Assembly (NCBI RefSeq): GCF_027942865.1
Contig: NC_134510.1
Location: 31,177,663-31,241,662 of the forward strand
Direction: 5' to 3'
Source: Odontesthes bonariensis
Taxonomy: Eukaryota; Chordata; Actinopteri; Atheriniformes; Atherinopsidae
DNA length: 64,000 nt
Below, piece after piece: positions 9,642 through 33,924 of the stretch. How positions within the stretch are numbered: position 1 is the first letter of the stretch; every line of letters starts with the position of its first letter. Made by a program: the position numbers and the translations under genes. The notes under the pieces were generated by a model. The model had not been told where the DNA came from, did no database searches, and saw nothing but the letters and a program-made list of their open reading frames with translations.

Positions 9642-12600
9642 CAGCTGCAGTGTTGTACTTTATGAAGAAGAAATTTACTCACTGTGGTCTCCTCCTCCTT
9701 CTGGATCGTGCAGCAAAGGCACTTGTGATCCCTGCCCCACTGCCAAGTCAACAACAAAGCAAATTTGAAAGGGTTTCCACAGAGTTCAACATCAAAGAAA
9801 CAGTGAGTTTACTATGACAAGTCACACTTTCAGGTATGTGACACGGACTGCTTTGCCTCTGTTAAGCACATTATGGAAACTACAGAAAATACTCAAATTT
9901 CAGGGTAAGAACCACAAAAAAATTATAATTTCTTATTTATTTTTTGAACTATTACCTACCCGAGCTTGCACCATCATAGTCGCGACCGTAACCATTGTGG
10001 GGAGGGGCATGTCCAACTCCATTGGGAAGAGGAAGCATGGGCATGCCAGGCTGGTGAGATTGTGGGCCACCATACACTGGCTGAGCATAAATACTGGGAG
10101 CAAAGTAGCTGGCGGCATACTGACCAGGCATACCTTTCTTCACCGCTTTCCCTGCCTCATACACTGCAAAATCATAAAAAAAATGTAAAGAAGCATGATG
10201 GTCTCAAACAATTTTAAAGCCACAAAATAAAAAACACCGACGAGTGAATAGAATAACATCCAGTATCTAATTACAATGCAATGTTCTTCTGGGAAACTTT
10301 GGACACAGGTGTTACGCGTTTGCTACTTCTACACGTGCCACCCACTTAACCACCGGGTCTGCAGCATTTATATGCCAGCACCAGGAACGGGACATCAAGC
10401 AGGCAGAATCTGCACACCATTCAAATGGAGGATCAGCCAGCACATATCATAAAGCTGACACAAACACAGCCCGGTGATCAAGTATCAAATGGATAAAGAA
10501 AAGTAACTGATTCTGCTGAATACTCACACATTATTGCTGATAATGTCTTTTCTTCTGTGACATATTTATCTTACTTTACTTCAGTCGTTACTGGTAAAAC
10601 TAAATTCTATTTTTGATACTAAGATCTACAGACATTATTTTTATTTATTTTTTGTAGAAAAGAGTATTTCAGTAAGACACCCGGTTCTAGATTACAATTA
10701 AAAGCTTGAGAAATGTCACTAGCTCCTTTATGAAATACTTACACGCTCGTGGACAGCAGCACTTCTCAGGACAGCAGGGGCAACTGACGAAGCAGCAGCA
10801 GGTGTGCGGACAACACTGACACCAACAGATCCCAATCAGGAGCAGCAGCAACAGGAATCCCAAAACCACCAGGACAACCAGGAGCCAGTCTGTGTGGACC
10901 AGAAGGGGGCGCTTTGAACACATTTTCCTTAAAGGTTCGCTTTACTTACGCACAAAATTTGGTTTCACACAATTCCAAATACATCATAATGATAAAAGGG
11001 TCACACACACACACACACACCAAGCTTATGTTACTTGTCAGCCCTAATTAAAGTGAGCTAAATGTGTGATTGGTTTGTGTAGTAAATCATTAGGGACAAA
11101 AGATCGAGACAGACATTCTCTTTTGGTTTCATTTCACTCAAACATAACGATTTGAAGATGCTGTATGTAAACTGGTCTCTGGAGAATAGTTTAAAAAAAA
11201 AAAAAAAAGAGAGAAAGAAAGAAAAGAAAAAAAAGAGGCAGAAGTCTTAGTCAATCCCTCAAGTCAGAGCCACAAAGTAACCCATGGACTATATTGTTAT
11301 ACAGTGGAAACCGCTTATAGTGGTCACGGATATAGTAATCAACCGCTTATATAGATCAAAAGGCTTGGGACAGAATCATTTCTATACAAATGCTGTTTAA
11401 ATAATTTGTTTATAGTAATCAAGAAATCCGCTTATAATGTTCATTTTTGGCCATTTTATGAATGTAAACATGTGCAAAAATAATTTTAAAACTACGTGTA
11501 GCTATTTTATTTTTTACTCCCTTGATTCCTTTCTGGACGTCTGCTTCTGCCTCGCTAGCTAACGTAACGAGTTGACACCGGGCAGCAAGCGCGCGAATCA
11601 TGGCTGGAAAAAGGAAGTCATTTTCTCTGAATGAAAAACATAGTCTCCTCGAGGCGTATGACAAATTACCAAAAACAAGCCAACGAGATGCTGCGGCGAA
11701 GCTTGGCATTCCTCAGGCTACCTTGTGTAGTCTAATTAAGCAACGAGAGCACCTGCGGTTGAGGCCGCCCTGGTGAAGTGGATTGATAATGCCCGGTCTC
11801 GCAACGCCCCGCTGAGCGGACCCTTGGTCAGGGAGAAGGCCGAGGCAGAGGATGGTTTCAAAGTTTCTGTCGGCTGGTTTGAGCGATTTAAAAAGAGGGA
11901 GAACATTAGCCGCTTTCGGACAGACCGTTCTAAGAAAGTAGTTATCAGAACTACCCTCCTCGAATTTCGTTCTGATAACTGTCCTTCCCCAGCGGAACTG
12001 TTTCAGTCTGCATTCGCACATGAGTCGGGACCAGGTCGGGACTGATGCGTCGCGCGCAGCCGTCTGCTTCAGTGACGTGTTAGCCGTTAGCCGTTTAGCG
12101 CTACATTCAAACACAAAACAAAACGGTAAAAGTAAGGAGAGTAGAAAAAACACCACCAAGAAGCTAATATGGAGAGCGGGGAGGCCACCGTGTTTATGGT
12201 CTGCATGATGGTGATATTAATCATGGACAATCACATCAGGCGTCTAATATCGAGGCTGGAAAAGAGAGAGTCAGGAGACGATACTTTTTCATTTCATGAA
12301 GGAAGAAAGGAGAGCAGAGCGCTGCAGACAAATGAGACCAGTGTAAGTTTAACTTATTAAACACCCGCCGGTTGTGTCTGTGTCTATGAGGAAACATTTC
12401 AGCCGTGATAGCATGACATGGGGCGTAGCTACCGACCACCACACACCTCCGTTAGATTCGTTCTATAAGAACTATGAAAAGACCCGACCTCGGAGAAGGA
12501 GCTAAATAGTTATAGGAACTGAGGGAGATAGCCCCGAGTTCCTGTATGTCCGAACACGGGAGAAAACGGCCCCGCGGATTAAAAGGTTATTAGAACTGCC

Positions 12601-15600: not shown

Positions 15601-18208
15601 CATAGAGGGAGGTACAGAAAGAGAAAGTGCAGTACAGGGGGTAGGGAAGTATGGGGTAAGTGCTAGGATAGGAGATGCTCTCTGAAGAGCTGGGTCTTCA
15701 AGAGTTTCTTGAAGATATTCGGGGATGCCCCTGTTCTGGTAGGGCTCGGTAGGTCATTCCACCATCGTGGAACGACACATGAAAAGAGTTTGGATAGCCT
15801 TAAGCCTTAAGCTTAAGTAGACGACAACCCTTTGACGACCGGACTGACCAAGTCATGACAGACAGAAATAGTCTCAAATGACTCAATTGGTTGTACAATC
15901 AGGATTTTACCATAGCAACAGTCTGGAAATGTGTTATGAAACTATGAGCATACCCATGGACTGAATGAGATGACTTTCAGACTCCGTTTCTGACGTGTTA
16001 AACCGTTTGTCAAAAGAAAAGGTGCAAATAAGAGGTGCTTTCTTGGGAATTCAGCTTTTTCAATACACATTTACATTTCTGTTTATAGCATAAAGATGAA
16101 ACTTTGGAGAACCATTTGGTTGTAGCTGAGTGGAGGAGTGATTTTCTAGGTGAGTTAGTCTGGTGTCGGTCTGACAAACACTTCCAAGCACTTTAAAAGT
16201 TCAGTTTGGTTGGGCTGACCCAAAAGTTAGTTTTTGAACTGTCATGTCCAACATGATTACTGTGATTTGATATTTAGCATTTATCTTATACTTTACTTTA
16301 ATTTTTTTATGTATAAATTTACATGACTATTTAAGTATAACCTTAGGATGTTAGCTCATACAAACCTCAATTATTATTTCCCTTGATTCAGTCTATTTCT
16401 GCTTTAAAATAAAGGATATAAATGATTTTATATCCTGAAGCTAAACTTCAGCAATAGTCCGATTCTCATTTGACTTATTTCTCTATGAAAATCTTTCTTG
16501 CAAACATGGACATAATGCAAAACAATTTCAGTTTGAAAAGCAGATCTACACAGAAGCTACAGATTTTTGATAATAAATCTATGTAAAATATACATTTATG
16601 TTTACCTCATACTTGTCTCTTTTTAAATCCAATTTGTCCGTCAAGTCAAAACATCACACTTAGTTGTATTACACCTCTAAATGGAGGTCTTATAGAATAG
16701 GCTTTAATAAACTCACTGTTTATGATGCTGATCTTGCGACCCTGATATTCTTTGCCGAGGGTAACGGCGCTGGCCTGTTTGGAAGCCACTATGCGGACAG
16801 TCCTTTGGCTGTCAGCGCACTCGATGTTAGGGTCATAGTTGGGGTTGTTTTGAGCCAAGGCGTTCTCTGCGCTGCTAGGATTGAGCGCAGCCTGGATTGG
16901 GTCCCGGCAGTATGATTTGTACTTCCAGGTGATGACAGGAGGCTGAGAGGCAGTCGTCTGGAAGTCACAACTGAGGGTGACGGGCTGGAAGAGGATGACA
17001 ATGTACCTCCTGGTTTGGCTCTGGACTGAAATGGCCAGGGTGGACTCTAGAAAGTATCAGAAAAATAGTGAGAATAAAATGTATATTAGTAGGACCAACA
17101 GATTATCTAAATTTAGAAACATTTTGTAACACTAGCTAAAGATTTCTCAGTCGCCTGCAATATTTAAGGTGTGGCACATGATAAACAATGTTTCTTCACT
17201 GTAAGTATCACTGAGAGTGGGTGAGATGAGTCACTTCAAATTTGGTCCATGCTCTCAGCCTGATCGTTACAGACATGAAGACAATAATATCTATGATCTG
17301 AAAACAGAGGAATGAACAACATTTTCATTTGGATATATATGACTTTCAGTCATTTTAGGAGATTTGACATTAAGAAAAATATAACTTCTTTCCAGTTATA
17401 AGAAGGAACATTGTATGCCCTGATGTAACCTACTTCCACCTATATTTTCAATATATCACAACACATAGCAGACCAAACATGCACATTTGGCATTTAGTCA
17501 GCTGGTTTGAGTGAGTTGAAATGGAAGATATTTATTATTTATTTGTAAACCTCCTACCAGATCTGACTCATACTTCCTCTAGTCCAGTTTCTGTCTCCCT
17601 ACTGTTCATATCTGTCGCAAAGGCACCATAAAGGGGGGGTTCCACCTGGCACAGTTAATAAAACAGCATTTTTCTTGATGCATGAGTAAAGCCTGTAACA
17701 AGTTAAACATAATAATAGTAACGTTAAAATAACTGATGTCTGTTTTGCATCGTAATTTGAAGGCCGTTCTTTTTAACCCTTTTTATCGCCCATTTTCTTT
17801 CAGTGTTTCAGAGATATTTTCTGCCGAAAAAAAAAAATACATGTTTCGTTGCTACGAACAACAAAACAATAAATAAATAAAAAAGTCTGATTACAACAAA
17901 TGAACCATCAAGCGGACACCTATCAAACTGATGAAAATAGATTTCTTTGTTATGCCTCAAAAATATTGTTTGTTGATAAAATATAAACTTCATTCTAAAT
18001 AAACCTTGGGGGAAAAAAAGCATACATTGAGAACGATGACTGCATAGGACAAAATAAAACATGTCAAATAAATGCGTTACAAACATGCCCAGAAGCGCTC
18101 AACACAGATGCCGTTTTCACGGAAGAGGCCCACCCTGTTACCGCCTGGTGAAAAACAGGCCAACTTACCTGTTGCCAAAAAAGCAGCGATGATTACCGTC
18201 CAAAACAT
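3225..18208 (-). CDS. lsr: Lipolysis-stimulated lipoprotein receptor (LSR, angulin-1), 11 coding exons
   Basis: Single-pass type I membrane protein of the LSR/ILDR (angulin) family. In vertebrates it binds apoB/apoE lipoproteins and recruits tricellulin to tricellular tight junctions. The 11 exons join in phase to 1875 nt, about 624 residues against about 649 in human. Order: signal peptide (1-13 in exon 1), Ig-V domain (about 14-163, with Cys in TLSC and VYVC), short stalk with a dileucine (164-182), membrane segment (about 185-204), dense cysteine cluster (about 204-229, [10 protein letters not shown]), then a long cytoplasmic tail rich in R, D, S and P with [11 protein letters not shown] and [12 protein letters not shown] motifs. 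It ends in SRESLVV, the ending I recall for mammalian LSR. This C-terminus and the exon sizes favour LSR over ILDR1/ILDR2. Three introns carry large transposon remains. Confidence 0.95.
3752..4220 (-). CDS. lsr: lsr coding exon 10 (RS/RD-rich tail)
   Basis: 469 nt, starts after CTTCAG and completes a Gly codon from exon 9. Encodes [14 protein letters not shown], then [25 protein letters not shown], and [13 protein letters not shown] near the end, all matching the LSR/ILDR tail. It ends CGCAAG|GCAAGT, a non-canonical GC donor. Reading through the donor would add only [10 protein letters not shown] before a stop, unlike the family ending. Confidence 0.92.
4886..4920. repeat. 35-nt near-perfect hairpin in lsr intron 9
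   Basis: Arms of 16 nt (TCAACCCATGCCACTG and CAGTGCCATGGGTTGA) with one mismatch around a 3-nt loop. Too short for a typical pre-miRNA; could be the collapsed core of a MITE. Confidence 0.5.
5690..6330 (+). mobile_element. Decayed Tc1-like DNA transposon remnant
   Basis: Frames here give Tc1 transposase pieces: [19 protein letters not shown] (DNA-binding to catalytic border) near 5820-5870, and, after a large deletion, [18 protein letters not shown] with [10 protein letters not shown] near 6050-6140, the region around the last catalytic aspartate/glutamate. Stops, frameshifts and a nested MITE show it is dead. Sits in lsr intron 9. Confidence 0.75.
5874..5944. mobile_element. 63-bp palindromic MITE with TTAA duplications, nested in the Tc1 remnant
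   Basis: TTAA at 5874-5877 and 5941-5944 flank a core that starts CCCTCTGAGGTC and ends GACCCCAGAGGG, imperfect inverted repeats. Inside is a perfect 20-bp palindrome (5892-5911). The TTAA duplication is the piggyBac-type target. It interrupts the Tc1 reading frame, so it inserted later. Confidence 0.65.
6558..6855 (-). CDS. lsr: lsr coding exon 9 (cytoplasmic tail)
   Basis: 298 nt between TTCTTCAG and GG|GTGAGT. Encodes [17 protein letters not shown], then [15 protein letters not shown], and [13 protein letters not shown], which match the MSEVTSLHE and RARSVDALDDL blocks of mammalian LSR. Phase 1 in, phase 2 out. Confidence 0.92.
7114..7194. repeat. 81-nt long inverted repeat (hairpin) in lsr intron 8
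   Basis: Two 34-nt arms (7114-7147 and 7161-7194) with a single mismatch around a 13-nt loop. It directly abuts the left side of a truncated TTAA MITE copy. Size and pairing are pre-miRNA-like, but a young transposon-derived inverted repeat is the simpler reading. Confidence 0.8.
7201..7543. mobile_element. Truncated copy of the 479-bp TTAA MITE
   Basis: Nearly identical over about 320 bp to the complete element at 28.85-29.33 kb, including TGGATTACCAGTGCACACC and the right terminal repeat ending before TTAA (7540-7543). The left terminal repeat is missing and replaced by the hairpin sequence. Located in lsr intron 8. Confidence 0.75.
7754..7870 (-). CDS. lsr: lsr coding exon 8
   Basis: 117 nt, CCCCAG acceptor and CGCT|GTAAGT donor. 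Encodes [13 protein letters not shown] and [15 protein letters not shown], aligning with the RSGYRIQ and YYMEKELANFDPSRP blocks of mammalian LSR. Symmetric phase 1-1. Confidence 0.92.
8168..8395 (-). other. 75-codon open frame of unknown origin
   Basis: An ATG-led frame ([17 protein letters not shown]...) in lsr intron 7, higher in GC than its surroundings and followed on its 3' side by TTAAAGGAGAGCTGGG, similar to MITE ends in this window. It looks like a transposon-borne or retrocopy fragment rather than a host gene; I do not recognise the protein. Confidence 0.25.
8649..9545 (-). mobile_element. 3' part of an L2-type LINE (non-LTR retrotransposon)
   Basis: A 193-codon frame (9419-8838) encodes the C-terminal part of a CR1/L2-clade reverse transcriptase: [41 protein letters not shown] and a final [20 protein letters not shown] block. 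Upstream, frameshifted codons for a KTEVIV-like motif reach about 9545, where the copy is 5'-truncated. Downstream lies the typical 3' tail TTTATTTATATAGCGC (8665-8685). Long open frame suggests fairly recent insertion. In lsr intron 7. Confidence 0.85.
9609..9637 (+). repeat. Poly(A) run of 29
   Basis: Uninterrupted adenines between the L2 LINE and lsr exon 7; length likely polymorphic. Confidence 0.9.
9683..9739 (-). CDS. lsr: lsr coding exon 7 (57-nt cassette)
   Basis: 57 nt between CTTGGCAG and CACA|GTGAGT, encoding [19 protein letters not shown], matching the GGQGSYVPLLRDTD block of mammalian LSR. Symmetric 1-1 phase, so skipping would keep the frame. Confidence 0.88.
9960..10163 (-). 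CDS. lsr: lsr coding exon 6
   Basis: 204 nt, TTTTGCAG acceptor and TCGG|GTAGGT donor. Encodes [28 protein letters not shown] and a G/P/Y-rich stretch with [10 protein letters not shown]. Matches LYAAGKA and YNGYPGG of mammalian LSR. Juxtamembrane cytoplasmic region. Confidence 0.92.
10743..10889 (-). CDS. lsr: lsr coding exon 5 (membrane segment and Cys cluster)
   Basis: 147 nt, CCACACAG acceptor and GCGT|GTAAGT donor. Encodes [20 protein letters not shown], a membrane helix, followed by about 13 cysteines in 25 residues ([12 protein letters not shown]...), the hallmark of LSR/ILDR proteins and likely palmitoylated. Symmetric phase 1-1. Confidence 0.95.
11003..11022 (+). repeat. (CA)n microsatellite
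   Basis: About ten CA repeats in lsr intron 4. Confidence 0.8.
11302..12851 (+). mobile_element. pogo/Tigger-like DNA transposon, 1.55 kb, internally deleted
   Basis: Terminal inverted repeats CAGTGGAAACCGCTTATAGT at both ends, flanked by TA (11300-11301 and 12852-12853), the Tc1/mariner-superfamily target. The GTAATCAACCGCTTATA motif recurs near both ends. Inside, a 58-codon frame (11600-11776) encodes a pogo/CENP-B N-terminal helix-turn-helix ([18 protein letters not shown]), and a second frame (11773-12045) the next HTH domain ([18 protein letters not shown]). A frame change separates them and no DDE catalytic domain follows, so the copy cannot move itself. The stretch from about 12.05 to 12.75 kb matches nothing I recognise in pogo elements. 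In lsr intron 4. Confidence 0.85.
11600..12045 (+). pseudogene. Broken pogo-type transposase DNA-binding region
   Basis: ATG at 11600 opens the first HTH; the frame stops at 11774-11776. The downstream CENP-B-type HTH runs in the next frame from about 11761 to 12045. Family assignment rests on the two ordered HTH blocks and the TIR/TA ends; the catalytic domain is missing. Confidence 0.7.
13393..13449 (-). CDS. lsr: lsr coding exon 4 (57-nt stalk cassette)
   Basis: 57 nt between TTTCACAG and GAAG|GTAGTA. Encodes [19 protein letters not shown], aligning to the AELLPGFQAG stalk of mammalian LSR and carrying two LL pairs. Symmetric 1-1 phase. It equals the 19 residues absent from the rodent alpha' isoform. 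Confidence 0.85.
13725..13844 (-). CDS. lsr: lsr coding exon 3 (end of Ig-V domain)
   Basis: 120 nt, CTTACAG acceptor and CTTG|GTGAGT donor. Encodes [20 protein letters not shown] then [25 protein letters not shown] is the canonical F-strand motif of an Ig-V fold with the second disulfide cysteine. Confidence 0.95.
15160..15800 (-). mobile_element. LINE 3' end (RT C-terminus plus fish-type tail)
   Basis: On the minus strand, 15790-15665 encodes [20 protein letters not shown] and [20 protein letters not shown] sequence, a clean 40-residue C-terminal block of a non-LTR reverse transcriptase. The tail TTTAGCAGACGCTTTTATCC (15170-15190) is a widespread fish repeat end. The part between about 15.24 and 15.6 kb is not obviously LINE and may be a nested insertion. 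In lsr intron 2. Confidence 0.65.
16717..17046 (-). CDS. lsr: lsr coding exon 2 (Ig-V domain)
   Basis: 330 nt, CTTTCTAG acceptor and AACA|GTGAGT donor. Encodes [15 protein letters not shown] (B strand and first disulfide cysteine), [13 protein letters not shown] (core tryptophan), [19 protein letters not shown] and [15 protein letters not shown]. These match LSR blocks such as [21 protein letters not shown] and ECQDSVRTVRVV. Confidence 0.97.
18169..18208 (-). CDS. lsr: lsr coding exon 1 (start and signal peptide)
   Basis: ATG at 18208-18206 followed by [12 protein letters not shown] and donor ACAG|GTAAGT; 40 nt, phase 1 out, which fits exon 2. Short hydrophobic leader for secretion. No other in-frame ATG with a compatible donor is seen close by. 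Confidence 0.85.
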
Positions 18209-19439: not shown

Positions 19440-19998
19440 ATGTTGTGGTGTAGTGGTGCCTGGAGAGGTGGGTATACCTGTAATTTTTGGACATTTTCTT
19501 TTTTCATTTAGTATTTGCTACGACAAGGATTGCAATCGTGTCCTCGGGGTAATCTGTGGGGTTGCTGTGGGAGCTGGGTCAGTTCATTACTGTGAACAGG
19601 GAGCTGAGATATAAGGTGAAGCTTTTGCTATATTGATCCATCCTCATTCCAGCCCTCCCTTATGGTCATGAAATCTGGGCTGTGACCGAATTCAAGCGGA
19701 TGAAATGAGTTTTCTTCGGAGGGCGGCTGAGCTCGGCCTTAGAGATAGGGTGAGGAGCATGCCCATCTGGAGGGAGTTCGGAGTTGAGTCGCTGCTCATC
19801 CAGATCAGAAGAGGTCAGCTGAGGTGGTTTGGGCATCAAGCTGCCTCCTGCTGGCTTTCCTTTAGAGGCCTCTGGGCGGACTTAGAACATGCTAGATAGA
19901 TTACATATCCCATTATATCATGCCTTGGACCACCTCAGGATCCCCCAGGTGCAGCTGGAGAGTTGGATCCTGGACCTCGGATAATGGATGGATGGATA
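19440..19998 (+). mobile_element. RTE/Rex-type LINE 3' fragment
   Basis: Codons from 19705 give MSFLRRAAELGLRDRVRSM, then EFGVESLLIQI and GQLRWFGHQ, the C-terminal signature of a common fish LINE (typically RDRVRSS...QLRWFGH). It ends with the tandem GGATGGATGGATA tail (19986-19998) typical of RTE/Rex3 elements. Frames are broken. Lies between lsr and the unknown gene. Confidence 0.7.
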
Positions 19999-20284
19999 TT
20001 ATGAATTGATTTTGAAGTGGGTATGCTCTATGATGACTAAAAGATATACCCTTATACCCTGCACTACACCACTGTACATATGACACCTAAACACAAAGTT
20101 TGCAGCAAAAAGAAAGCTTATAATTCCATTAGCAAATAAAAAGAAGAATCTTGATTTGATAGGTGAGCAGTGTTGACTTTGCAGTATTCCTTGTTGCCAT
20201 CCTTTTTTAATCCTATTACAAAATTGGGAAAAATTAGGTGTAAGTACATGTAATTAAAGAGTCACAGTGTATTTGTAGGTCTCA

Positions 20285-20290
20285 TTTATT
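20285..20290 (-). terminator. Candidate polyadenylation signal of the unknown gene
   Basis: AATAAA on the minus strand about 110 nt past the stop codon proposed at 20400-20402. Fits a short 3' UTR if the last exon is read correctly. Confidence 0.3.
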
Positions 20291-20399
20291 TTTGGAATAT
20301 TTGGATCTTGTATATTACAGCAATTTATATTCAATTGTAGAGTATTTTTTTAAAGTTAATTATTTGAATAAACAACCGAAATAATGAGAATTTCGATCC

Positions 20400-20432
20400 T
20401 TAAAGAAATTTACCTACCTGCTGCAAAAAGAG
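20400..20432 (-). CDS. Unknown gene, candidate last exon
   Basis: Acceptor TTCTTCTAG then codons LFLQQVGKFL and TAA, in phase 0 with the previous exon. A strong donor (CAG|GTAGGT, after 20418) lies inside, so this could instead be a 15-nt microexon splicing on to a tail I cannot find. Confidence 0.35.
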   Translation of the reverse strand, partial: LFLQQVGKFL

Positions 20433-22234
20433 CTAGAAGAAAAGAATGTTCAAAAAATAAAATCACTGAAATGTAAATCCAAATATTCAATATTATTACA
20501 TTGTTTTTAAATTTATGAAGACATGAAATGGAATCACTTCATACAACAATGCAGACAATATAAGATAGATCTGCTGGTCAATTGAATATGTTGAAAGTTG
20601 CGTTTCATATCTAGTCATACTTACAATCGAGATCAGCAGTGCTACGACCATCACCAAAAAGAGACCTGCAAAATGAAACCATACTGTTCTCATATTGTCA
20701 CATATTCTCATCTTTACACATAACCACGCTCGACTCGTTCAACATGCTTGGGTGGCTGGTGCCTGGCGAGGTCGGTCATTCTGCTTGCCATCTATATCTC
20801 TATCTATATAGATATAGATTTTCACAAAGGCAAACTGAAGATGCATGCTGACTAAAATGCAGATATCATAACAGACATATCAGAATCCTATAGCCCTGTT
20901 AATAGATGGAGCTAAAAGTAGTAACATACAAAGCTGCATAGCAAGCCCACAGAGATATGTCTATATGCTGAGACTTTTATGTTAAATAAACCAGCTACTT
21001 GTAGCTCATGTTTTTAGCTTCAAACACACACTGAATAAATAATTTCACTGTTTAGATATCAAAATAAATTAGAACTATGTTGGGAAGAAGAAAACAGACT
21101 GAATCTGGATCCATGTCCCAGGCAGTCTCCGTTAATTTCAGGGTGATTACTGCAGACACCGTCAACCTGTTTTGTGAACTGTCACCCAATGACTAATACA
21201 GTGTCCAGGACAATGCATTGAAATAAAGAGAAAAACAAAAGAGTTTAATTTTCTTGTTCTTTAGATACCTGTCTCCCTGTCTTTGACACTGCCTCATACC
21301 AGAATAACTGTGTCTGGCCCAAGAGTATTTGCCCGGGGCTCTAAAACTGAGGGAGCCCTGATCAAGTCAGCTTAAGCCCTGGAAGTGACAAAGCGAATGG
21401 CCCTAGCACACACTCACTTACTTTCTTTTGACCTAATAGTATAAACATGGCTAGTTTTCTAAAACTAAATATCTTATAACTTGATAACATGATTAAAGCT
21501 GGCATGACCCAGATATATTAACTCAGATAAACCCTCTTTGTTTATGCTGAGCAGAGAAGTATCTCAGAATGCAAATCACATTAAACCTTGAGGTAGATGG
21601 GTTACAACAGCATCCTGTCTGCTCCTGTCTCATGGGAACTAAAATCTGAGGACAGCTGTGGTTTTAAAACTCGTTATTTATAATTTAAATGTCTCAGTTT
21701 ACATATTTTTCACATTTTCCTATTTTCAAATGATTACTTCAAGCATGATGAAGTACCAGTTAACAAAGAAAACATCTGACAAATCTGTCAACATGAACTA
21801 AAGTCTCAAAGGTAGAACTGAGATTATTTTGAAGGTTAAGAGGGGCTCCACTCAGAATGTGTACTGTACTGCTAACTAAATGCAGAGAATACTTACTGCC
21901 GCCCGTAGTTGCTCCATAATTTCCTGGGTAAGAGATCTGCCGGCATTTACCTAAAGCCGACGAGAGAAATCAAAAGTCCATCAGGGACCTGCAATAACAT
22001 ATAGTGAACCTTTCTGATTTAGAGAATCAAAACAATGATCAACACGCTGGCACAAGCTATGAGCAAAAGTTGGAGGTACATATACAATGTAGATTAATAA
22101 TACCATAAAAACCATTCTGAAAATGTACGAGCATTTATGTTGAAAAATAATTATCTTGGTAAGTCTTTGAATTTTCAGAAGTCTCACCTGCTGCTTAGAG
22201 CTTTGCGATTTTGGTTTATGTTGCTATATATTGA

Positions 22235-22303
<69 letters not shown>

Positions 22304-25254
22304 ATTGCCTGCCAGTCTTTTAACTAAAGATTTTAATATAATCTAGTGTCCTAAATGTACAGTATATACAATTTAAACAGCTTTCTGAGACCTGAAATTT
22401 GAAATGAATTAAGTAACAAAATAAAAATTTAAGAATGAATGACCAGCTCAAAAACAAAACGTTACATCTTTAAAGGAAAGCATGACTGTAGCCTGGAAGA
22501 TATAATATGAACGATAATGAGCAATTGAAAGATTAATTAAGACCAGAGCACATGATTCAAATACAGTAAAATGCACTTGAAATTGTTACTATGGTGAAAG
22601 TTGTTGTTTGCTTAATTAGAGGTAACAGGCAAGATGCGAACATCACGTCCATTTCTTGAAAAGCTTCATCTAAACAGCATCATGCTGAAGACTCTGTTCT
22701 GTTTAGTCACATTTTTTAGAAATAAAACATTGATATTTAAACAAATGAAAAAACAAAAGATATATCAGTAAAGCCAGCATATGACCAAAACCTAGAAGAG
22801 ATTGATGTTTAACACATACTCTTCAAGAGGTCCAGCGGTTTAGATGTATTATCCTCTGCATCGATTTTGCTGATGTCATCTGGGCAGGAGATCTCCACAT
22901 TGGACTGGTCCAGGCACACAGTGCAGTTCTTAGTGGGCGGATGGGTCTCAGAACATGCTTCAAATGAATCTTTGAGGCCTCTCTCGTAACGTAGATTGTC
23001 ATCACTAAATATTTTTATGAGATTTTGGCATCTTTTATCCGAGCAGGTAAAACAATTACCAGCTGGCAGTACTGGTACCAGGGCAGAGAAAAACATAAAT
23101 GAGAAGCTTAACAGAGGTAAACAACTGAATTAATCTTGGGTGTAAACACATTTCATATGGCTGCAAGTACCAACAGAAGGAAAATATGAAGTCAAATCTA
23201 TATTAAAAAAATCATGTTATTCACAATTCAGTTTAGTTCCCAGTGAAAAAAATCTATCGTACATATTAACTAGCTTTTAATATAAAACATACCAGCAGAT
23301 GCAGAAGAGACGTCCACCAGGCTAGTTGCCACTAACAAGCCAAGGCACACTGGAAAAGCAGAAAGGAAAAACAGGTCCATGAGATGGTTATTAATTCTTG
23401 CAGGTCTGACCTGATATGGAGATATCCTGAGAAATACATGAACAGTAATCACTTTACAGTTCTGCTGATGGGAAAATAACAGAATCTGATGACTAATCTA
23501 TCTTGACTATCGTGATAAGTTTTGATATCAATAATAATTACTAATGTTATAATAATAAAGTTAATGACAACGATAACTATTATCATTACTATTGTTCTTA
23601 ATATTATTATCATTTCCTTCTTTCTGGGCATTGATTCCATACAATATTTGAACTGTGAAGTTATATTGACAGTGTCGTAATAAACTACTTTATATTAACA
23701 AGTCTATCTAATATTCTTCCTCCTTATTTATGTAAATGTAAAAATTAAAAAAATGTGTCAATATAATTTAGTCAGCTCAACACCATCATTAGAATTGCCT
23801 GGGTAAATGACTATATAATCCAATTTAAATATTTCTAATGTTAAAAAAAACGGTCAATTTGCATTAAAAGTTTATCGCGGACATAGAGTGTATATAATGT
23901 GAATTTAACTATTTATATATTTAAGACTAAAAGCAAAGAAAATATGAAATGTTTTCTAAATGTATTTGTATATACAATTTTTAATTCATACGGAAATTAT
24001 CTTAGTAATATCATTTGTTATTACCGGCAGCAGCTCCATAACTGTAGTTTTTTCTCCTCTTTCTTTGTCCTTGAGCATTTGCTGGTTCCTTTAGTGATTC
24101 CATCTTAGAGTCCACGATGCAGTGATCTCTTCCTGCCTTCTCTTCATCTGCCTCTGTAATGGCTGCTGTTTCAGATAAAGGCATAGCTGCTTCTTCTTTG
24201 CTTTTTTTTACTGGTGGCATCAGTGGAGGCTTTGGTGGAGGGTTGTTTTCTTGTGCCTTCGCTAAACCGTCTGGTCTAAAAGACACTTTTCCAGCAAACA
24301 CACTCTGTGTCTCAGACATTTTCTCCTCCGATGGCTCATAGATGTCTTGTTCAACCTTTGGAATGGGCCTCACACAAAATCCTGTCTCTGCTACTGGCAG
24401 AGCCGGTTCAGCCATTACCTCGTAGGTATTACTGATCTTGTGCCTCATGTTGGTAGAGAGACCTTCATCACTGTAACATCAAAAAGTGAGGCTTTCTTTA
24501 CAAAATGCAAATCCCATTTTTTTTGTTTTACAAAGGATTTTAATAACTGCTGGTAATTCAAACTAAATAAATGTAAAATCATTTAAAACAGATTATCAAA
24601 TCTGACTGTAAACAAGTGCAATGAACAAAGATCCAAAAGGTTTCAGGCATCAGTGGTTGAGAGTAACGTTACACAACATTCAGATCATTTTGACTAATAT
24701 GTTTAAAAATAGCTTTACAACAGAAATGGGAGTACGTACCCGCTCTCCTGTGGGCATTCGCCACCTTCAAGATTGAAACAAAGTTAACGATAGTTTTCAT
24801 GGACAGGCACATGATTGTGTAATTTCTAAGATTTATCTATGTCACAAAGCCATTTTAGTCAAATGTTACTTTGTTGATGCCTGCATCTTGGAAGAAATGC
24901 AGGAGTTAGATAAGAGCTTTGCAACAGGAACACGACAAGTCGTTGTGAATGCCATTGCATCAGCAACACGTGTTAATCATATTTAATAGTGCGGCGCAAT
25001 ATCTGCTGCAAAAATCTTAATAAAACAATTTATTTGGCTAAAAGGCTTTCCAAAGTGGACGTAATGTTTGGTTAAGCCGAATGAGTTCAAACCTCAGACA
25101 CATCCTGTCAAAGCCGGTTTTTTTAGGCTTGAAATGAATGAAAGAGTATCACATCATAAAACGTTCTTATTGCACACAATTAAACCGTGAAATCTAAACG
25201 AACAAACTTACTTTGAGACTGAGAATCGGCAAAATCTTCAGGTATGAAAGCCAT
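20400..25254 (-). CDS. Unrecognised membrane protein gene, about 8 exons
   Basis: Eight pieces with good splice sites join without frame conflict to 951 nt (about 316 residues). Residues 1-171 look cytosolic: Y39 in NTYEVM, Y67 in DIYEPS, a PPPKPPLMPP proline run and a basic KRRK at about 160. Then a hydrophobic stretch (about 172-185), a Cys-rich part with eight cysteines (197, 200, 205, 230, 240, 243, 253, 277) and two N-glycosylation sequons (N239, N265), and a second hydrophobic stretch (about 294-310) close to the C-terminus. Read as one protein it is two-pass with both ends inside. Alternatively the part from 23380 down is its own signal-peptide-led type I protein. I do not recognise the family; a leukocyte receptor or adaptor is only a guess from the tyrosine and Cys features. 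Confidence 0.5.
20625..20665 (-). CDS. Unknown gene, exon 7 (hydrophobic segment)
   Basis: 41 nt between TTTTGCAG and GATT|GTAAGT. Encodes SLFLVMVVALLISI, a likely membrane segment. Phase 1 in, phase 0 out. Confidence 0.5.
21897..21950 (-). CDS. Unknown gene, exon 6 (stalk)
   Basis: 54 nt between GGCTTTAG and GGCA|GTAAGT. Encodes SKCRQISYPGNYGATTGG, a short G/Y-rich stalk with the eighth cysteine, right before the hydrophobic exon. Symmetric phase 1-1. Confidence 0.5.
22232..22302. repeat. (TA)n microsatellite with TATACA interruptions
   Basis: About 70 bp of near-pure TA in an intron of the unknown gene; self-complementary and likely length-variable. Confidence 0.9.
22820..23071 (-). CDS. 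Unknown gene, exon 5 (Cys-rich ectodomain)
   Basis: 252 nt between TGGTACCAG and AAGA|GTATGT, an open frame throughout. Encodes VLPAGNCFTCSDKRCQNL, then SFEACSETHPPTKNCTVCLD, VEISCPDD and DNTSKPLDLLK. Seven cysteines, two sequons (NCT, NTS). The CxxC-x4-C pattern does not match any fold I can name with confidence. Symmetric phase 1-1. Confidence 0.6.
23293..23349 (-). CDS. Unknown gene, exon 4 (hydrophobic / signal-like)
   Basis: 57 nt between CTTTTCCAG and GCTG|GTATGT, encoding VCLGLLVATSLVDVSSASA. If the frame is followed upstream through the acceptor to an ATG at 23380, it begins MDLFFLSAFP and the whole reads as a classical signal peptide ending in an AxA-type cleavage site. Either exon 4 of a long gene or exon 1 of a shorter one. 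Confidence 0.5.
24025..24470 (-). CDS. Unknown gene, exon 3 (Tyr- and Pro-containing cytosolic part)
   Basis: 446 nt, GTTACAG acceptor and GCCG|GTAATA donor. Encodes DEGLSTNMRHKISNTYEVM, FCVRPIPKVEQDIYEPSEE, PPPKPPLMPPVKKSKEE and QRKRRKNYSYGAAA. Two tyrosines in acidic/hydrophobic settings and a polyproline run suggest SH2/SH3 ligands. Open throughout; reading past the donor meets a stop after three codons (NNK). Confidence 0.6.
24740..24764 (-). CDS. Unknown gene, exon 2 (25-nt microexon)
   Basis: Between CTTGAAG and GCGG|GTACGT, giving SGECPQESG in frame with the exons either side (phase 1 in, phase 2 out). Very short, so supported mainly by phase and splice sites. Confidence 0.4.
25212..25254 (-). 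CDS. Unknown gene, exon 1 (start)
   Basis: ATG at 25254-25252 in an AGCAATGG context, codons MAFIPEDFADSQSQ, donor CAAA|GTAAGT. Phase 1 out, fitting exon 2. An alternative first exon near 26.67 kb has the same phase. Confidence 0.5.
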
Positions 25255-27150
25255 TGCTGTTAGAGTAAACTGCTGCTGCTGTTGAAAATCTGATCTCATA
25301 GCCTACCAGGAAATGTGTTCAACTTCCTCTACAATCTAGACTGTATCAGTGTTAGACCTCCACCTGGTGGACAAAGCTTTTCAAACTTTTCCCTAAGAGT
25401 TTATAATATTTCTATAGACAAATGCAAACAACATGGGATACCGCATGTTTAATCTGTTTCTTTCATCTTTACTCAACCAAAAGAAAGATATTATCAATCT
25501 GATTTCATTTCTCCAGAGGTCAAAGGAATGCTGCAAATTATCACATGCTGCTATTAAAATGTGTCTTGTTTATCATTACTGTAAATACACAACATGAATT
25601 GAACTTTTTTTTTTAACTGTCTCCCTAGTTCTTCTGAGAAAGTGACCAGCGAAGCATGGTGAACGCTGAACTTCCTGATTCTTCATTTTATGACGCTGTC
25701 CTGACCGCTTCCATTTTCCATGCTCAGCTGCAGCTCTCTAATCTGTTACATCTTTCAGTTACCTGCTCTTTTTTTGTTTCTTAATGGCTCAGTTGTTTTT
25801 CTCTTTCCTCTCTCATCTCATACGGCTACCCGCAATGAATGTAGTGTTGTTGTAGGTTTCCCTCTTTGTTGTCGACAATCCTTCTCAAAGAGAATACGGG
25901 TTTTACTTTATAATACTGTAAGGTTTTGACCTTAGTATGTAAAGTACCTTGTTAGATATTATCTAACACAATATTAATAAAATTCAGTATGACTGAATGA
26001 AGTAGTGAATCAATTAAATCAAGTAGTAAATCAATCATAAACAGCTATAATTAGTGCATAAAGCTCTACAAAAGGCAGTAAATCGAACAGCCAAAACGTT
26101 AAGGCATTAATGAATCCGTAATAATGATCCAGAGGCATATTTCATTCCAAAATTTAGCTTAATAATTACTTACATGTCTCTTTTGACAGTCAATCCACTG
26201 ATTAGTTGAACTGTTTCTTTTTATACATTTTGGATTTTTTAGCATTCCCAATTTTGTCTATGAATAATATTTTGACAGCCACAGATTTCTCACAAAAAAT
26301 ATGCAGTCATGTTACAACATCTGTTAATAGTGACAAGATGTAATAAAAATGTAATTAAACATCATTATTGGCCATATGATCCTTATTTCTTGAAGTTAAA
26401 CATCAGCAACAGTGTGCTAAAAGTGAAAGAATTCCCACAGAAGGACAGTGTTCCTGTTCATTCATTTTTTTAATCTGACATTTGGCACAGGACTGCTTAT
26501 CACGTTCGACATTTGGCAAAGTCAAGTTTGGTGGTCCAAGGGGTTTGATTATGTAGCTGAGTATTCCCATCCAAACTAATGATGTTTTAAAATACTTTAC
26601 TTTTAATCTTATGCTTCATATTAAGGTCGATTCAGTCAGATTTTTAAAATAAATCTAGTTTTACCTTCAGTGTGCATTTTGGGTCCTCTCTCCTCGCCGC
26701 CGCCTCCACTTGTTCAACTCTTCAAGACTTCAACCTTGCAAACCTTATTATCGAACTAAAAAATTTACTAGTAGACCGATAACTTTACATACTGGTGACC
26801 TGCCCTGGGTTTGCCCTGCTTCTATGGCAATGACTCATGGAAACGGCTCTAGCCCCCATCACCATCACTAAAGAGACCTAGAAAAAAAGCACTGTCTTGT
26901 TGAGTCAAAAGAATTCTGCCTGCTGTCAATTTCAGTATTATAATGACAACCAGTCAAATACATATAATGAGAGGAAAATGAAGGGAAATCCTCTTGCAAA
27001 ATCCATTTTCAGTTTAAATATTGTGCTGGTTTCATGACACAACCTGCTTAAACAAGACAAACATTTGCAGAAACACATATTCTGTGCATATGAAAGTCTC
27101 TTGTAATCACCCACTTTCTTACAGCTCAGATAAGACAAAAAATATTTCAC
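25255..27150. other. Intergenic, no gene body seen
   Basis: AT-rich unique sequence. The only gene-like signals are a possible upstream first exon at 26.66-26.76 kb and a CCACCTGGTGGA palindrome near 25.36 kb. Other open frames lack codon or similarity support. Confidence 0.4.
26665..26760 (-). promoter_or_regulatory. Candidate alternative first exon / promoter of the unknown gene
   Basis: A small GC-rich block (GGCGGCGGCGAGGAGAG on the minus strand) leads to ATG at 26677 in a CAAAATGC context, codons MHTE and donor GAAG|GTAAAA. It leaves phase 1, compatible with exon 2 at 24.76 kb. No transcript evidence. Confidence 0.3.
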
Positions 27151-27152
27151 AA

Positions 27153-27490
27153 AGGGATAGTTCACCTCTTTTGACATGAAGCTGTATGACACCTCATATT
27201 ATCAATATCGTGCATGTACATTTTCTTACCCCCTGCTGCGTCCTGTGAGCCGAATTCCAGCCTCGTTTTGGTGTTGACGAAGGTAGTCCGGCTAGTTGGC
27301 CGGGGGAACAAAAAAAAAAGCGCGTTTTGCTTCAGAACTCACAATCGCTTGGCGCTATTTTCTCTCCCTTCGTATCACTGCGTGCTGCCACCTGCCAACA
27401 GCCGCGCCTGTTACGGTGTTTGCTGCTCGGAAGCAGGGGACTGCTCGGTCTGCACCCTAAAACAGGCGCGGCTGTCGGCGCAATGACTGA
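27153..27490. mobile_element. Probable MITE (GGGATAGTTCACC-type)
   Basis: Begins AAAGGGATAGTTCACC, a common fish MITE terminus, continues with sequence of repeat character and is much more GC-rich than its flanks. A 15-bp inverted repeat (ACAGCCGCGCCTGTT near 27.40 kb and its complement near 27.46 kb) lies at the right side. The matching right terminus is not clear. Confidence 0.4.
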
Positions 27491-28846
27491 GATTCATAAA
27501 AGAAAACCATAGATACTTGTCTCTTTATTAATCAGCTGAAAACACTGACTAAGTACATTTCTGGCTTTGTATGTACACATAGTTTCAGTCATGAAACTAC
27601 ACACAGTTTTATGCATTTTTGCTCTGCATCTGAGTCCATTAGAACACTTTTGATACAGAGGCCATGCTCAATAGGAGTATTCCTACTAAAATGCTCATCG
27701 ACAATACTTACTACTACCAGTAGTAAAAATCAGCTGCTGTTCCCCTCAAGATGATGAAAGAAATTAAATGTATTAGGGACTAAATCAATTAGCCAATCCT
27801 GTTTAGAGCAATTGAGAAAATGAAATTTTACAAGGCCTTATATATATATACATCATGTATATATATATGATGCAAGTTACTTAAAGTACAGACAAATGCC
27901 GCCATAGTACTGTACTTTTACAGAGTACAGAGAACAGACATCTATTGTGTCATTTTCTGTTAAAACCTTTGTGAGCAGCCATGATCAGTTTGGAGGCCAA
28001 AGTTTTTGGTGCTGCTGGTCTGTGGTCCGTTAATCAGAGGTAAAATCTTTTTTAATGACTAGATTAAGCTTTTTTTTAAGCACTAAAGCTTTCTAGCCAT
28101 TTTTGTTGAAAAAGTGTTCATTTCTTGTGGTTTGTGGTGCCTGACCCTAAACTACTTGCGCGACTATCATTTATTGTTTTCTTTTATATTTAGTTTCAAA
28201 GCTACAAATACAATTCCAAATCTTACCACATAAGCAGCCTAAATACAAATTCAAAATTATAAATAGATTACCACTCAAGCAAATGTGTTGTGTTTGCACC
28301 TTCTCCATCCTGTCCACCACCACCGAAACAACCAGCAACATACTGGGCTGCAATGTTCCATCCTCAAATATACGATGAATATGGCCAACATGAAATGCCC
28401 TAAAGCCCGCCTTTTCTCTTTATTTCACCCTGATGTATGTCTCTTTTCCTTTATTTTATATTGTGTTTGCACCTGTTTCTGAGGATGGTGACTGCTGGCT
28501 TAAACTGACTGTGTTTCTTTCGAATAGTCTGTTCCAAATTTCTAACATCAGTAGCTGTTCTAATGCAAATATCTTGCTGGCTGTATGCATAATACAGGAT
28601 ATATAATTTTTATTGTGCATTGGAAGGTTACCATAAGGCAGAAGGTTAAAATAGACTCTGCGAACGACCTGTAAAATATAACCACGTTTTTTGTCAACAA
28701 TAAAAGCTCTTGGAATACCCGAGTGGGAGCAGATCTTGAGTTGCTTGACTTGATTGGCAAAGACAGAAAAGCCTCCTACTTGGGACTTTCCTCTGATATC
28801 AACATTTCTGTAACCGAGCCTCAGGTCTCAGTGATGCAATTTTCTC
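27491..28846. other. Intergenic AT-rich DNA
   Basis: No supported gene. Holds a short (TA)n tract near 27.84-27.87 kb and otherwise unique sequence. Confidence 0.4.
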
Positions 28847-29333
28847 TTAAAGGAGAACTGCGGTATTTTCAACATTAAGCCTCTTTACTGAGTCGTCTGC
28901 AATGTTTTAGAACCCCCCTTATCAAATTTTGTTGCGAAAAGTTGCTTCTGTCGTGTTTTATTTGGCAGCTTGTTCATGCTCGAACTATTTTCTTAGCAGT
29001 GGCGGAGTAATATCAATGAACATCCAGTACAAAATGTCAAATAAAACACGACAGAAGCAAATTTTCGCAACGAAATTTGATATGGATTACCAGTGCACAC
29101 CAGTAACCACTCCGGTGAGTTGATGATTTTGAAAACGGACGTTTATGGTGCTTTTACGGACCTTTTTGGACATGCACCATACTTGCCATTCTGAAGCAGG
29201 TTGAGAAGAATCAAAATTAGGCAAATACCGGAGACAGCGGTAAACATCAAAAAAGCGGCGAGGGGGGTTCTAAAACATTGCAGACGACTCAGAAAAGAGG
29301 CTTAATGTTGAAAATACCGCAGTTTTCCTTTAA
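28847..29333. mobile_element. Complete 479-bp TTAA-flanked MITE with about 70-bp inverted repeats
   Basis: TTAA duplications at 28847-28850 and 29330-29333. The left end starts AGGAGAACTGCGGTATTTTC and the right end is its complement with few mismatches, continuing for about 70 bp to the AACCCCCC stretch. The interior has no transposase frame. A truncated relative sits at 7.2-7.54 kb. TTAA targets point to a piggyBac-type or related transposase in trans. Confidence 0.85.
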
Positions 29334-29659
29334 GTTCTTCAGCCGAATGGCGTCAGCCTGGATCTTGTCGGTCTTGTTTCGTTTCACATCATGACAGAAG
29401 ATGTTTGCTTACGAATCAGTCTTCTGTGAAAAATTCCGAATGTGACGGGGAAACTCCCCGTTGCCACAGATCAATTTGTACACAGATTTTAAGTAACCCA
29501 CTCAGAGAGACCCTCAAAAGTCCCACCGCAATCTGGTGTTCATGTCAAAATGAAAGCCTCTAAATATTGTCTAATTTGACAAACATCTTTTCTATTTTCA
29601 GATTCATATTAGTAAAATAAATAAACAGTTTCCACAGAGCAATTTCACTACAGATTTAA

Positions 29660-29860: not shown

Positions 29861-32000
29861 ATGAGGCATTTGAAAGGAAGAAACTGCGGTACGCTGGCAG
29901 CAGAGGCAGATCAGCAAGGTTGAAAGGTGGGAGTGGGTCCAGTGGAAGTGGGTTGCAGGGGCTTTGTGGCTTTCTCCACCATAAGGCTGCCAAAGGACAT
30001 GGGCATCAGAGGGCATGCGCAGCAGAAATTAATCAAAGAACTCTCCACTGTGGCTTAACGAAGCAGTCACTGGTTGTGGCTGAAACGAAAAGACACAGTA
30101 GCCCATTGGCTGTCTTATGGGCTCTCTTATGTATAAGGCTCTATTATTTGTTTGATATTGGATCTATCTCAATAAGAAACCTCCTGTGTCCCTTTAAGAT
30201 CCCAGACTCAGGAATTTGGCCTATTATACACAATTTACGTAGATATATTTCAAGAACAACTTAACACCTCCACTTGAATATGTCTGTTATTTTTTTCTAA
30301 TGTGCCACTGTTGTGTCTTGTTTCGTGACCACTTTTGTGTGCACATGAAATCTAAACCTAAATCATAACAGTTCAAAGGCCATTTGCCTTTATTATGGTT
30401 TTTGCTCTTGAAACCCACAATAACTGTTCAAGATGGTATAATTTAAATGGAGGATCTTTTGCAGCAATAATACATTGCTACTGAAGAAAAATAAATGTAC
30501 TCATAACTGAATATTTATTTTAAAGTTTATCATCCAAAGGGAAGAATCAAATGTGATCAGGAAGTAAACCAAATTTGTGACAGAATAACTCAGGAGGTTG
30601 TGAAACTGCTTGAAGTTTCAAAACTTCTGGGTTCAATTCCCAGTTAGTATCATTGACCTGTATTTGTCAAAAGTCATTAATGCAAGGTGATGCTTTTATT
30701 TGTTTTATAGGTCAAAAATCAAAGTACAGAGGGAAAAGCTTTTGGATTGCACATCCACATATCTGGAAGAATAGCTTAGGCTGTTTGGGGAATGTTTTCA
30801 AGTTCAGAGGTCGTAGGATCAAAGCTTATGTTGCAATGAATTTTCAGGTCCAAAACTGAAAATGCAGATTAAGTGCTCCAAAAACATCTCCAAGTGTGAA
30901 GGGGACGTGATGGCCATAAACCAGCAAATAAAAAGTGTTGCTCGTTCCTCATGATGCATCTGAGCCGCATCACTTCTCGTTACTAAGCCTGATCTTAAAC
31001 ATATATAAAATAAAACATAAGCTGGATTTCTCAATTTTTTAGAATTTGTATCCCCTTACTATAAAGCACAGATGATATCCCACTACAAAGTATTTTCTTT
31101 TGCACGTACTTCTCGTCATGCTTAATTATTTTTTGGTGAATATGGAACACCTTATTTTATCTATAGGCTACTCAAGTTATGGGGGACACAATTTTTGGCC
31201 TTATTCTAATGAAAGCTTGTCCAACACGTGTAAATTTTATACATTCTGTTTTATTGCAAACTGTACAGCCAAGGCCATCATAATTAGCATTCCTGTTTAA
31301 CCTTTGTGAAAAAAAAAGACCATACCTCTCTGTATCCACAAGTGATGAAGCATGATCTTACATACCTGTAAAATAAAAGACTTCATGTTTTAACACACAC
31401 TGTCTTATAGAAAGGTGATACTTTATTTTCTGACAAAGGAAACATAGCCTACAGCTAGAAACGTCTACTACAGTCATCTGAGTAATGTGCAAGATGAAAC
31501 ATGTGATGTTTGAAAACAGTGTGCATCATAGAGAAGAGATACAAATGATGTCAGACTGTTCAAGGAGGTGGAAATTTATATCAGGACTAGAATTTAAAAG
31601 TGTGTTTGTGTGGAAGTGTGGAAACGTGGACTGTATGAAATACTGTGGGCAGTTCTGTCTTGTGTATTTGATATCAAGTGACGCTGAGCCAACCAAAGTC
31701 TCATTATTATTGTATTATGTTATATTGACACACTCCAAGACCGTAGGACTCCTTGTTCCGGACTGACTAGAGTGATTTACTCAACCTACACGATTTTACA
31801 GTCACAATTGTACACGGGTGCGTCACATTCAAAGGTCCGTGTCGAAACAAAAACACGGGTGAACAACTTTATCCTAGACATAACATATTCAGAAAATAAA
31901 AGCATGTATATTACTTGGAGCGTCAAATAATATTTTAAAATATCACAGATGGAACAAGAAACCCTAAACAATCAATTAAAAGGTCGACATTAGCCATTTT
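29861..32000. other. Intergenic, tRNA-like SINE remains
   Basis: No gene supported. Two tRNA-like stretches with box B-like sequence occur at about 30.58-30.65 and 30.77-30.83 kb; the rest is AT-rich. Confidence 0.35.
30584..30650 (+). repeat. tRNA-like sequence, probable SINE head
   Basis: An A-box-like AATAACTCAGGAGGTTG and a box B within CTGGGTTCAATTCCCAG (30627-30643), spaced as in a tRNA. The acceptor stem does not pair well, so it looks SINE-derived rather than a functional tRNA gene. Confidence 0.35.
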
Positions 32001-32138
32001 TTCGGTTTACGTGGGGAAAACGAACCGTAATGTAGCGTATCCACGTCCGTGAGGGACTGCGCGTTCCCGCGGATAGGGGAAACAATTTCTCGCGGGGATA
32101 ACTGCCTTGACACAACACCGGCTTCTTCGGTGAGCGTC

Positions 32139-32152
32139 AGTGCCATGACAAC
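32139..32152 (+). promoter_or_regulatory. RFX X-box-like site at the BBS9 5' end
   Basis: AGTGCCATGACAAC matches 11 of 14 positions of the symmetric X-box GTTGCCATGGCAAC, keeping the inner half-sites. RFX factors control BBSome and other ciliary genes through X-boxes close to the start site. It lies about 90 bp before the donor of the putative first exon. Confidence 0.5.
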
Positions 32153-32159
32153 AGGACGA

Positions 32160-32238
32160 TGGCTCCAAGCAAGAGAATGAGAAATGTGATGTCTGTGTGA
32201 ACGAGGAGTAACAAACGAGGAGCAACGTTTTTGTGACG
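32160..32238 (+). other. bbs9: bbs9 putative non-coding first exon
   Basis: Sequence after the X-box-like site runs to a consensus donor GACG|GTAAGA (exon end 32238). It has no in-frame start leading to the BBS9 protein, which begins in the next exon. The transcription start is not defined; 32160 is nominal. Confidence 0.4.
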
Positions 32239-33924
32239 GTAAGAAAACTTGAAAACAACGCTCAGCGGTCTTTGTCATTCACGAAAAAACTGTTGATTTG
32301 CAGCGGGACTGTTTCTGACCTATTAGCTAGTACCTGGATAAGTTGGAAAGCTAGCTAACTATCCACGGCGAAGCTAAAGTTGAAGCAGCCAGCTTGACAT
32401 TAGCTGCAATGTAATTTACCTTTGCAGGGATCTTTGAGTCATTGCAGATATGAAAGCTCCTGAGTGTGTGTCCCCAACTATTTCTATTGTTATAACATGG
32501 AGGAGGACGGTGTTTTCCAAACATGATCTCTTCTTGGTATGAAGAGAAATAATCAGCTGTGTGGTTATGTACTACTGTACCCCCACAGTATTCAAAGTAG
32601 TGTCCACCTTAGCTCTTGGCTGAAGTAAAACGCTAATTGCTCTCAGTACTGTGGGGTGTTATGGAGACAAGGCAGCACAGACACAAAAATATACACTGAG
32701 TTATTTAACATCCCAGAAGAAATGTTCACTTGAGTTTCAGTCCCCATTCCAATGTTATGATTTTCAGGTTACTTTTTGCCCTGCTAAAGCTAACTGTGCT
32801 TGTGTAAACCATGGTGAACTGTATCACATTAAAAACACTTGATTTTTTTTTAAATCTGAGCTTTTGAAACACTTTGCAATAAAATGGTGCTTGCGTGCAT
32901 AGCCAGACTTGAGTTCATTGTCTTTTTAACTTGTTTTAGTGCACTATAGCATGATGCTTCTTAGAAGGACACAGAGAGTTGGTCCTTATCCTATCGTTGT
33001 CAGTTCTTAGTGTTCAGATAAAGACAACGGAGAGTTGATGAAATGTTGTACCAGCTTAATTCTTACTTGAGAAATAGTAGGAGAAAATCCAAAAGACATT
33101 CAAAGCCAATTTACTTTAACCCAAGCCCAGATCCATAAGACAGTGTGCTGTGGATAACAGGGATTCTCTAGGTCTGGATTAACTCCTATTCCACCTGCTC
33201 AGCATTTAGCAAGAAGAAAAGCTGCTTGCCCCCACCTACACCCTCCCTCCCACCTCTCATTCTCCTTCTCAATCACACACACAATCCGTAGGTCATGTGA
33301 CTAACTCCCTTCTCGGCATTTGGCTGTCAGTGTAATGCACAGAGCACTAAAGCTTACTGGTCTAGGTGACAGTGTGGCCATTGCAATGGCTCGACCGCTA
33401 CCTTTCTTGGCAGACTGATTCGAGAGAGTGCTTTTGTAAAAATCGGAGAGAGTGTGGTTTGATTTGTAGCCAGTGGTATACATTTTTAGAAAGGATATGA
33501 ATAAATAGTCTGTACACCTTTGTTACCCATTGTGCTGTTCTTGAACAAAGCACTACCCTCCTACTTCTCCTGCTGAAGCTTCTCAGTAAATTGTGTTTAG
33601 TACTGCAAATAGTTAATGCTTTAAAAAAATGAATGCCTGTTGTTCTTTTTTTGAGTCTGACTATTTCTTTGTGTGTCTCTTTGTTCACCTGTCTGTTGAC
33701 CTATGCTTAAAGTCCTAAATGTCCTCTAATCTACATGACAATAAATCTGATCTTAAAGGTATTGCTACATCTTATCATACATGAGGAGGATTTAATTGAA
33801 GATAACATTTTTGCACCACTGAGTACAAAGAAAAGCACGAACGGGACATTTTACGCATAAATCTAATTCACGACATTCAATACCTCCCCCTTTTTGTTTT
33901 TCTTTCTGTCCAATTAGAGGCAAC

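Follow-up and report, generated by a model that had tools for sequence, protein, structure and literature searches.

A candidate eight-exon membrane-protein gene between lsr and bbs9 in the fish Odontesthes bonariensis

Tails with tyrosine and proline motifs are found in transmembrane adaptors and type II receptors of the LAT, PAG and CD72 types. A different architecture is described for the IST superfamily (IZUMO1, SPACA6, TMEM95), which combines a double CXXC motif with a distorted four-helix bundle between the two motifs (PMC9482655). In SPACA6, by the numbering given there, the CXXC motifs are 108 residues apart, the arrangement is C128-x10-CXXC-x10-C153, and further hinge cysteines are at positions 124 and 147. 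Orphan and lineage-restricted genes are already known as a class. In zebrafish, 135 conserved teleost-specific and 66 orphan genes were reported, with immunity proteins enriched among the conserved teleost-specific set and fewer exons in the lineage-specific genes (PMC3599513).

The locus considered here lies in a stretch of 64,000 nt (hereafter the window) of Odontesthes bonariensis contig NC_134510.1, positions 31,177,663-31,241,662 (C6:31177663-31241662 in the 945-Mb genome), with a GC content of 39%. The window carries lsr on the minus strand, where a Pfam LSR match was found at 10690-10941 (E 1.8e-23), and bbs9 on the plus strand, where three frames within 33.8-58.7 kb matched the PTHB1 N-terminal domain (PF14727), one of them scoring slightly under the cut-off and the other two over it. 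A human BBS9 protein sequence aligned to the window in ten blocks running from 33925 to 60270. The candidate gene lies between these two genes, in the orientation of lsr (minus strand). FAM187B and FXYD are neighbours of LSR in mammals; both were set aside as identities of the candidate on their architecture. A possible first coding exon of lsr, chosen by our gene finder, is located at 18169-18208 (minus strand), about 2 kb downstream of the candidate.

Scripted splicing of eight minus-strand pieces gave a frame of 316 codons when started at ATG 25254; from ATG 25299, which is in the same frame, it is 332 codons long. This reproduced the initial annotation, which had proposed eight pieces with agreeing phases and about 316 codons. 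All seven introns are of the GT..AG type, phases match at each junction and no piece contains a stop codon. Exon 1 (25212..25299, or 25254-25212 when read from ATG 25254) is the first coding exon as modelled and has a donor of 7.8 bits. It is followed by a 25-nt exon 2 (24740..24764, phases 1 to 2) and by the 446-nt exon 3 (24025..24470), which encodes the presumed cytosolic tail with the motifs YEVM (24424-24413), YEPS (24340-24329), PPPKPPLMPP (24241-24212) and RKRRK (24064-24050). Exon 4 (23293..23349), with an acceptor of 13.5 bits, encodes the first hydrophobic stretch (VCLGLLVATSLVDVSSASA), and the 252-nt exon 5 (22820..23071, phases 1-1) encodes a cysteine-rich segment with the motifs CFTC and CTVC and two sequons. 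Exons 3 and 5 are open over their whole length, as had been claimed. The eighth cysteine and a short stalk come from exon 6 (21897..21950), and the first part of the second hydrophobic stretch from exon 7 (20625..20665). Exon 8 (20400..20432) ends the frame with LFLQQVGKFL and a stop codon; other in-frame acceptors are present at 20420 and 20417. An AATAAA hexamer lies on the same strand at 20285..20290, about 110 nt past the stop. The intron between exons 5 and 6 holds an AT dinucleotide array of 33.5 copies (22235-22301).

The encoded 316-residue protein contains eight cysteines, all after residue 190, and no tryptophan. Hydropathy peaks at 1.85 (residues 168-186) and 2.70 (residues 291-309), and the first of these stretches is short and, in our own reading, signal-peptide-like. 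The order previously described, a tyrosine- and proline-containing N-terminal part, a hydrophobic stretch, an eight-cysteine part with two sequons (at 239 and 265) and a second hydrophobic stretch, was confirmed, with one additional sequon at 164 ahead of the first hydrophobic stretch. The two CXXC motifs, CFTC (197-200) and CTVC (240-243), are separated by 39 residues. A single-sequence structure model of exon 5, weak with a mean pLDDT of 65.7, contains two helices and a beta-hairpin that begins at the second CXXC.

Splice sites were ranked against all 7452 GT and 8044 AG dinucleotides scored on both strands of the window. Among all AG, the exon 4 acceptor ranks in the top 0.04%, and among all GT the exon 2 donor ranks in the top 0.8%; the other sites range from 1.5% to 13.6%. 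The sites had been described as consensus; this holds for the GT..AG ends, but strength is uneven and the donors of exon 3 (top 7.4%) and exon 5 (top 13.6%) are mediocre. No other open AG..GT interval on either strand of the window reaches 446 nt with sites as good as those of exon 3, and among 200 single-strand Markov sequences of order 4, each 16.5 kb long, one contained such an interval. Intervals like exon 5 were found 27 times in the window, all inside exon 3, exon 5, lsr frames or two transposon-like stretches; since 36 of 200 Markov sequences also contain one, exon 5 by itself is weak evidence. A continuation from exon 6 into a 19-residue stretch of mean hydropathy of at least 2.2 was found in 9 of 200 random sequences, and of at least 2.6 in one, the real value being 2.70; with stricter sites, these counts were one and zero out of 200.

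Gene structure was also predicted with a home-made gene finder blind to the claimed exons, run over five regions covering them with four intron penalties each (20 runs). Exons 3 and 4 were recovered in all runs, some of which started exon 3 from ATG 24448. Exons 2 and 5 were each recovered in 16 runs (in two of them exon 5 was the last exon, ending at 22809), exon 6 in 14, and exon 1 from ATG 25254 in 11. Exon 7 was chosen in none of the 20 runs and was used only at the lowest penalty in a separate run. Exon 8 was never the terminal exon (0/20), although nine runs used its acceptor to open an internal piece. Predicted exons in the 27.0-27.75 kb patch and at 19871-19666 were set aside, the latter being antisense to a LINE-like frame. 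The multi-exon membrane-protein gene initially annotated upstream of lsr is supported, most firmly from exon 2 to exon 6, with an uncertain start codon and uncertain 3' exons, the last two of which are small. The CpG-rich patch at 27.0-27.75 kb was considered as a promoter, but its segment 27151-27455 matches two of 15 random genome blocks at 84-97% and is a dispersed repeat; therefore, no promoter was assigned to the candidate.

None of the 200 Markov sequences generated for each of eight settings (intron penalties of 14, 16, 18 and 20, Markov orders 2 and 4) reached the highest score that the gene finder gave for 19801-27500. Real DNA gave a different picture. Both strands of 15 random 10-kb segments drawn from this genome gave 30 strand-blocks. 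The candidate's score was equalled or exceeded by 14 of them at penalty 18 and by 11 at penalty 16; six held an interval like exon 3. The score therefore excludes random sequence of such composition, but not all biased real DNA. In our own reading, several of the top blocks may be real genes, LINE frames, gene antisense or low-complexity sequence. The absence of a second copy is what separates the candidate from repeats. Across the 945-Mb genome, the 83-residue exon 5 query found itself and one weak place (C14, E 0.586), rejected as a paralogue on account of its cysteines, lost except for one CXXC, and of a stretch unused by the gene finder. With exon 3 as the query, two further places came up besides the exon itself, with E of 5.0 and 6.8, and both were rejected as paralogues; none of the candidate exons had a match in the 15 random 10-kb blocks.

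Codon usage was evaluated with a local model trained on the lsr and bbs9 exons of the window, 13 of 16 of which scored positive on leave-one-out. Exon 3 scored -0.086 bits per codon, below the median (-0.066) of 87 open 148-codon windows in non-coding sequence. Exon 5 scored -0.006, above the median (-0.230) of 1125 open 83-codon non-coding windows but below their 90% point (0.050). Local codon usage of the candidate is weak, and the local model does not favour a gene. With a human codon table, the claimed frame was the best of six for exon 3 (14.1 bits) and narrowly the best of six for exon 5 (3.7 vs 2.9), and exons 1 and 8 were negative.

The profile search and structure prediction of the cysteine-rich exon 22820-23071, both proposed with the initial annotation, were carried out. 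In Pfam, at E values up to 10, no family was found for exon 5 or for the whole 316-residue protein, and exon 3 matched a single lipoprotein model, unrelated and weak, whose E of 0.087 did not reach the cut-off. Neither a TNF receptor nor a Ly6/uPAR domain was matched in the cysteine-rich loop at E up to 10, although HMMER filters can drop diverged small cysteine-rich domains. Sequence searches of the PDB returned nothing for the whole chain, with a slightly misjoined query, and unrelated molecules for the loop (best E 0.36). Comparison of the weak exon 5 model with PDB folds gave nothing above noise. The earlier statement that the protein belongs to no known family thus stands within Pfam, PDB sequences, one weak fold model of exon 5 and the fish's own genome, and no wider.

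Searches were extended to viral and microbial contigs. Exon 5 aligned with one viral contig at 30% identity, the shared part being NCFTCSDK in a frame resembling a primase zinc finger. Its 29.6 bits exceeded those of all 50 shuffled exon 5 queries (best 25.4). We regard this match as chance, as one of the patterns used to select the contig was NCFTCSDK itself, which favours the score. In microbial genome contigs, 51 pattern matches to exon 5 were obtained, none of them confirmed, and the six pattern matches to exon 3 in viral contigs were not confirmed either. The literature searched yielded no paper joining bbs9, lsr, synteny and teleost and nothing on the candidate itself, which does not show that the gene is unpublished. 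Public annotations may well include it by now as a predicted gene without a name.

How does the candidate compare with the described systems? Like proteins of the LAT, PAG and CD72 types, it has a long, predicted cytosolic tail with a YxxM motif and a proline stretch before the span, but it differs from them by its eight-cysteine outer loop and second span, with no Pfam match and no tryptophan. A C-type lectin-like receptor was considered and rejected, since the whole protein lacks tryptophan and matched no Pfam family with an E of 10 or less. With IST proteins the candidate shares two CXXC motifs, at 197-200 and 240-243, with putative disulfides. The second is flanked by a cysteine on each side, C230-x9-CTVC-x9-C253, compared with C128-x10-CXXC-x10-C153 in SPACA6 (PMC9482655). 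The differences are 39 instead of 108 residues between the motifs, two modelled helices instead of a four-helix bundle, two hydrophobic stretches without a sure signal peptide, and no clear counterpart of the SPACA6 hinge cysteines 124 and 147. We do not claim IST membership, given the 39-residue gap and the two-helix model in place of a four-helix bundle. As for the lineage-specific zebrafish genes, no relatives of the candidate were detectable in the libraries searched, but it has eight exons whereas such genes are reported to have fewer (PMC3599513). The earlier suggestion that the protein is perhaps immune fits, by analogy, the base rate among teleost-specific genes given there.

On balance, we favour a real, single-copy minus-strand gene between lsr and bbs9, whose product would be a small membrane protein some 316 residues long. 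Judged from its sequence, it is probably an uncharacterised two-pass surface glycoprotein with a tyrosine/proline tail. Residues 1-168, in which RKRRK comes close to the end, would form a cytosolic tail, and the positive residues before the first span suggest this location. The first hydrophobic stretch would then cross the membrane. Some 100 residues would follow as an outer loop with eight cysteines (presumably in four disulfides) and two sequons as putative glycosylation sites, and the second hydrophobic stretch would return the chain, leaving a very short C-terminus inside. YxxM is the binding pattern of p85 and YxxPhi that of AP-2, and YEVM fits both. The tail tyrosine in YEVM and the proline stretch could dock cytosolic adaptors or drive internalisation, and the disulfide-bonded loop may meet a partner. 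A much bolder reading, which we consider very improbable, is that this undescribed vertebrate gene encodes a disulfide module of a new kind on a receptor-like protein with a signalling tail. The module would be a small double-CXXC fold made of a hairpin and two helices, possibly a reduced relative of the IST domain involved in gamete fusion. If true, such a reduced fold would bear on the origin of surface proteins of gametes or immune cells. Should the gene be expressed and conserved, it would add one more uncharacterised surface protein at a locus recognisable by its neighbours lsr and bbs9, which would allow orthologues to be sought by synteny and lineage range and selection to be measured.

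Three other readings of the locus were weighed. The core may be right and the ends wrong, with exons 2-6 real and another start or end (the stop at 22809 after exon 5, read-through after exon 6 or 7, or other exons), in which case the C-terminal span may be absent or different. At high intron penalty over 20200-25600 the gene finder does end at 22809, and elsewhere at other exons, and the codon scores of exons 1 and 8 are negative; against this, the second hydrophobic stretch is unlikely by chance (9/200 and 1/200) and an AATAAA is in place at 20290. We hold this reading to be possible, if somewhat unlikely. It is unlikely, in our view, that the locus contains two transcripts or genes, exons 4-8 encoding a small type I (or GPI-anchored) protein from the in-frame ATG at 23380, with a signal-peptide-like MDLFFLSAFPVCLGLLVATSLVDVSSASA followed by the CXXC loop, and exons 1-3 belonging to an alternative or separate transcript. 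Exon 4 (hydropathy 1.85) resembles, in our own reading, a cleavable signal peptide as much as a membrane span, and the CXXC would start at the seventh residue past the likely cleavage site. The ATG at 23380 carries no weight by itself, because 171 of the 597 frames in the window with a strong acceptor likewise have an upstream in-frame ATG before any stop. Moreover, the codons it adds are mostly the pyrimidine tract of the 13.5-bit acceptor, which argues for splicing into exon 4.

That there is no gene at all, only chance open frames or a decayed gene, seems quite unlikely to us. The weak local codon usage, the lack of a homologue in the sets searched and the equal scores that random genome blocks can reach all speak for it. 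However, no Markov sequence (0/200) reached the score at any setting, exon 3 is unique in the window and no piece contains a stop; and several of the high-scoring random blocks look, in our own reading, like genes or repeats, whereas the genome search showed no second copy of exons 3 and 5.

Other elements were observed in the window. A CpG-rich segment at 31751-32500 (observed/expected 1.0-1.3), about 1.4 kb ahead of the bbs9 start codon, is a possible bbs9 promoter. Frames at 8841-9449 (minus strand) and 19672-19896 (plus strand) presumably represent LINE reverse-transcriptase remains, and the Pfam search gave no reverse-transcriptase match for them. Within lsr, a plus-strand frame at 11740-12042 encodes a Tc5-type transposase DNA-binding domain (PF03221, E 5e-14). 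Nested inverted repeats at 28846-29334, with 74-nt arms 97% complementary and 57-nt arms 89% complementary, are probably a small transposon copy.
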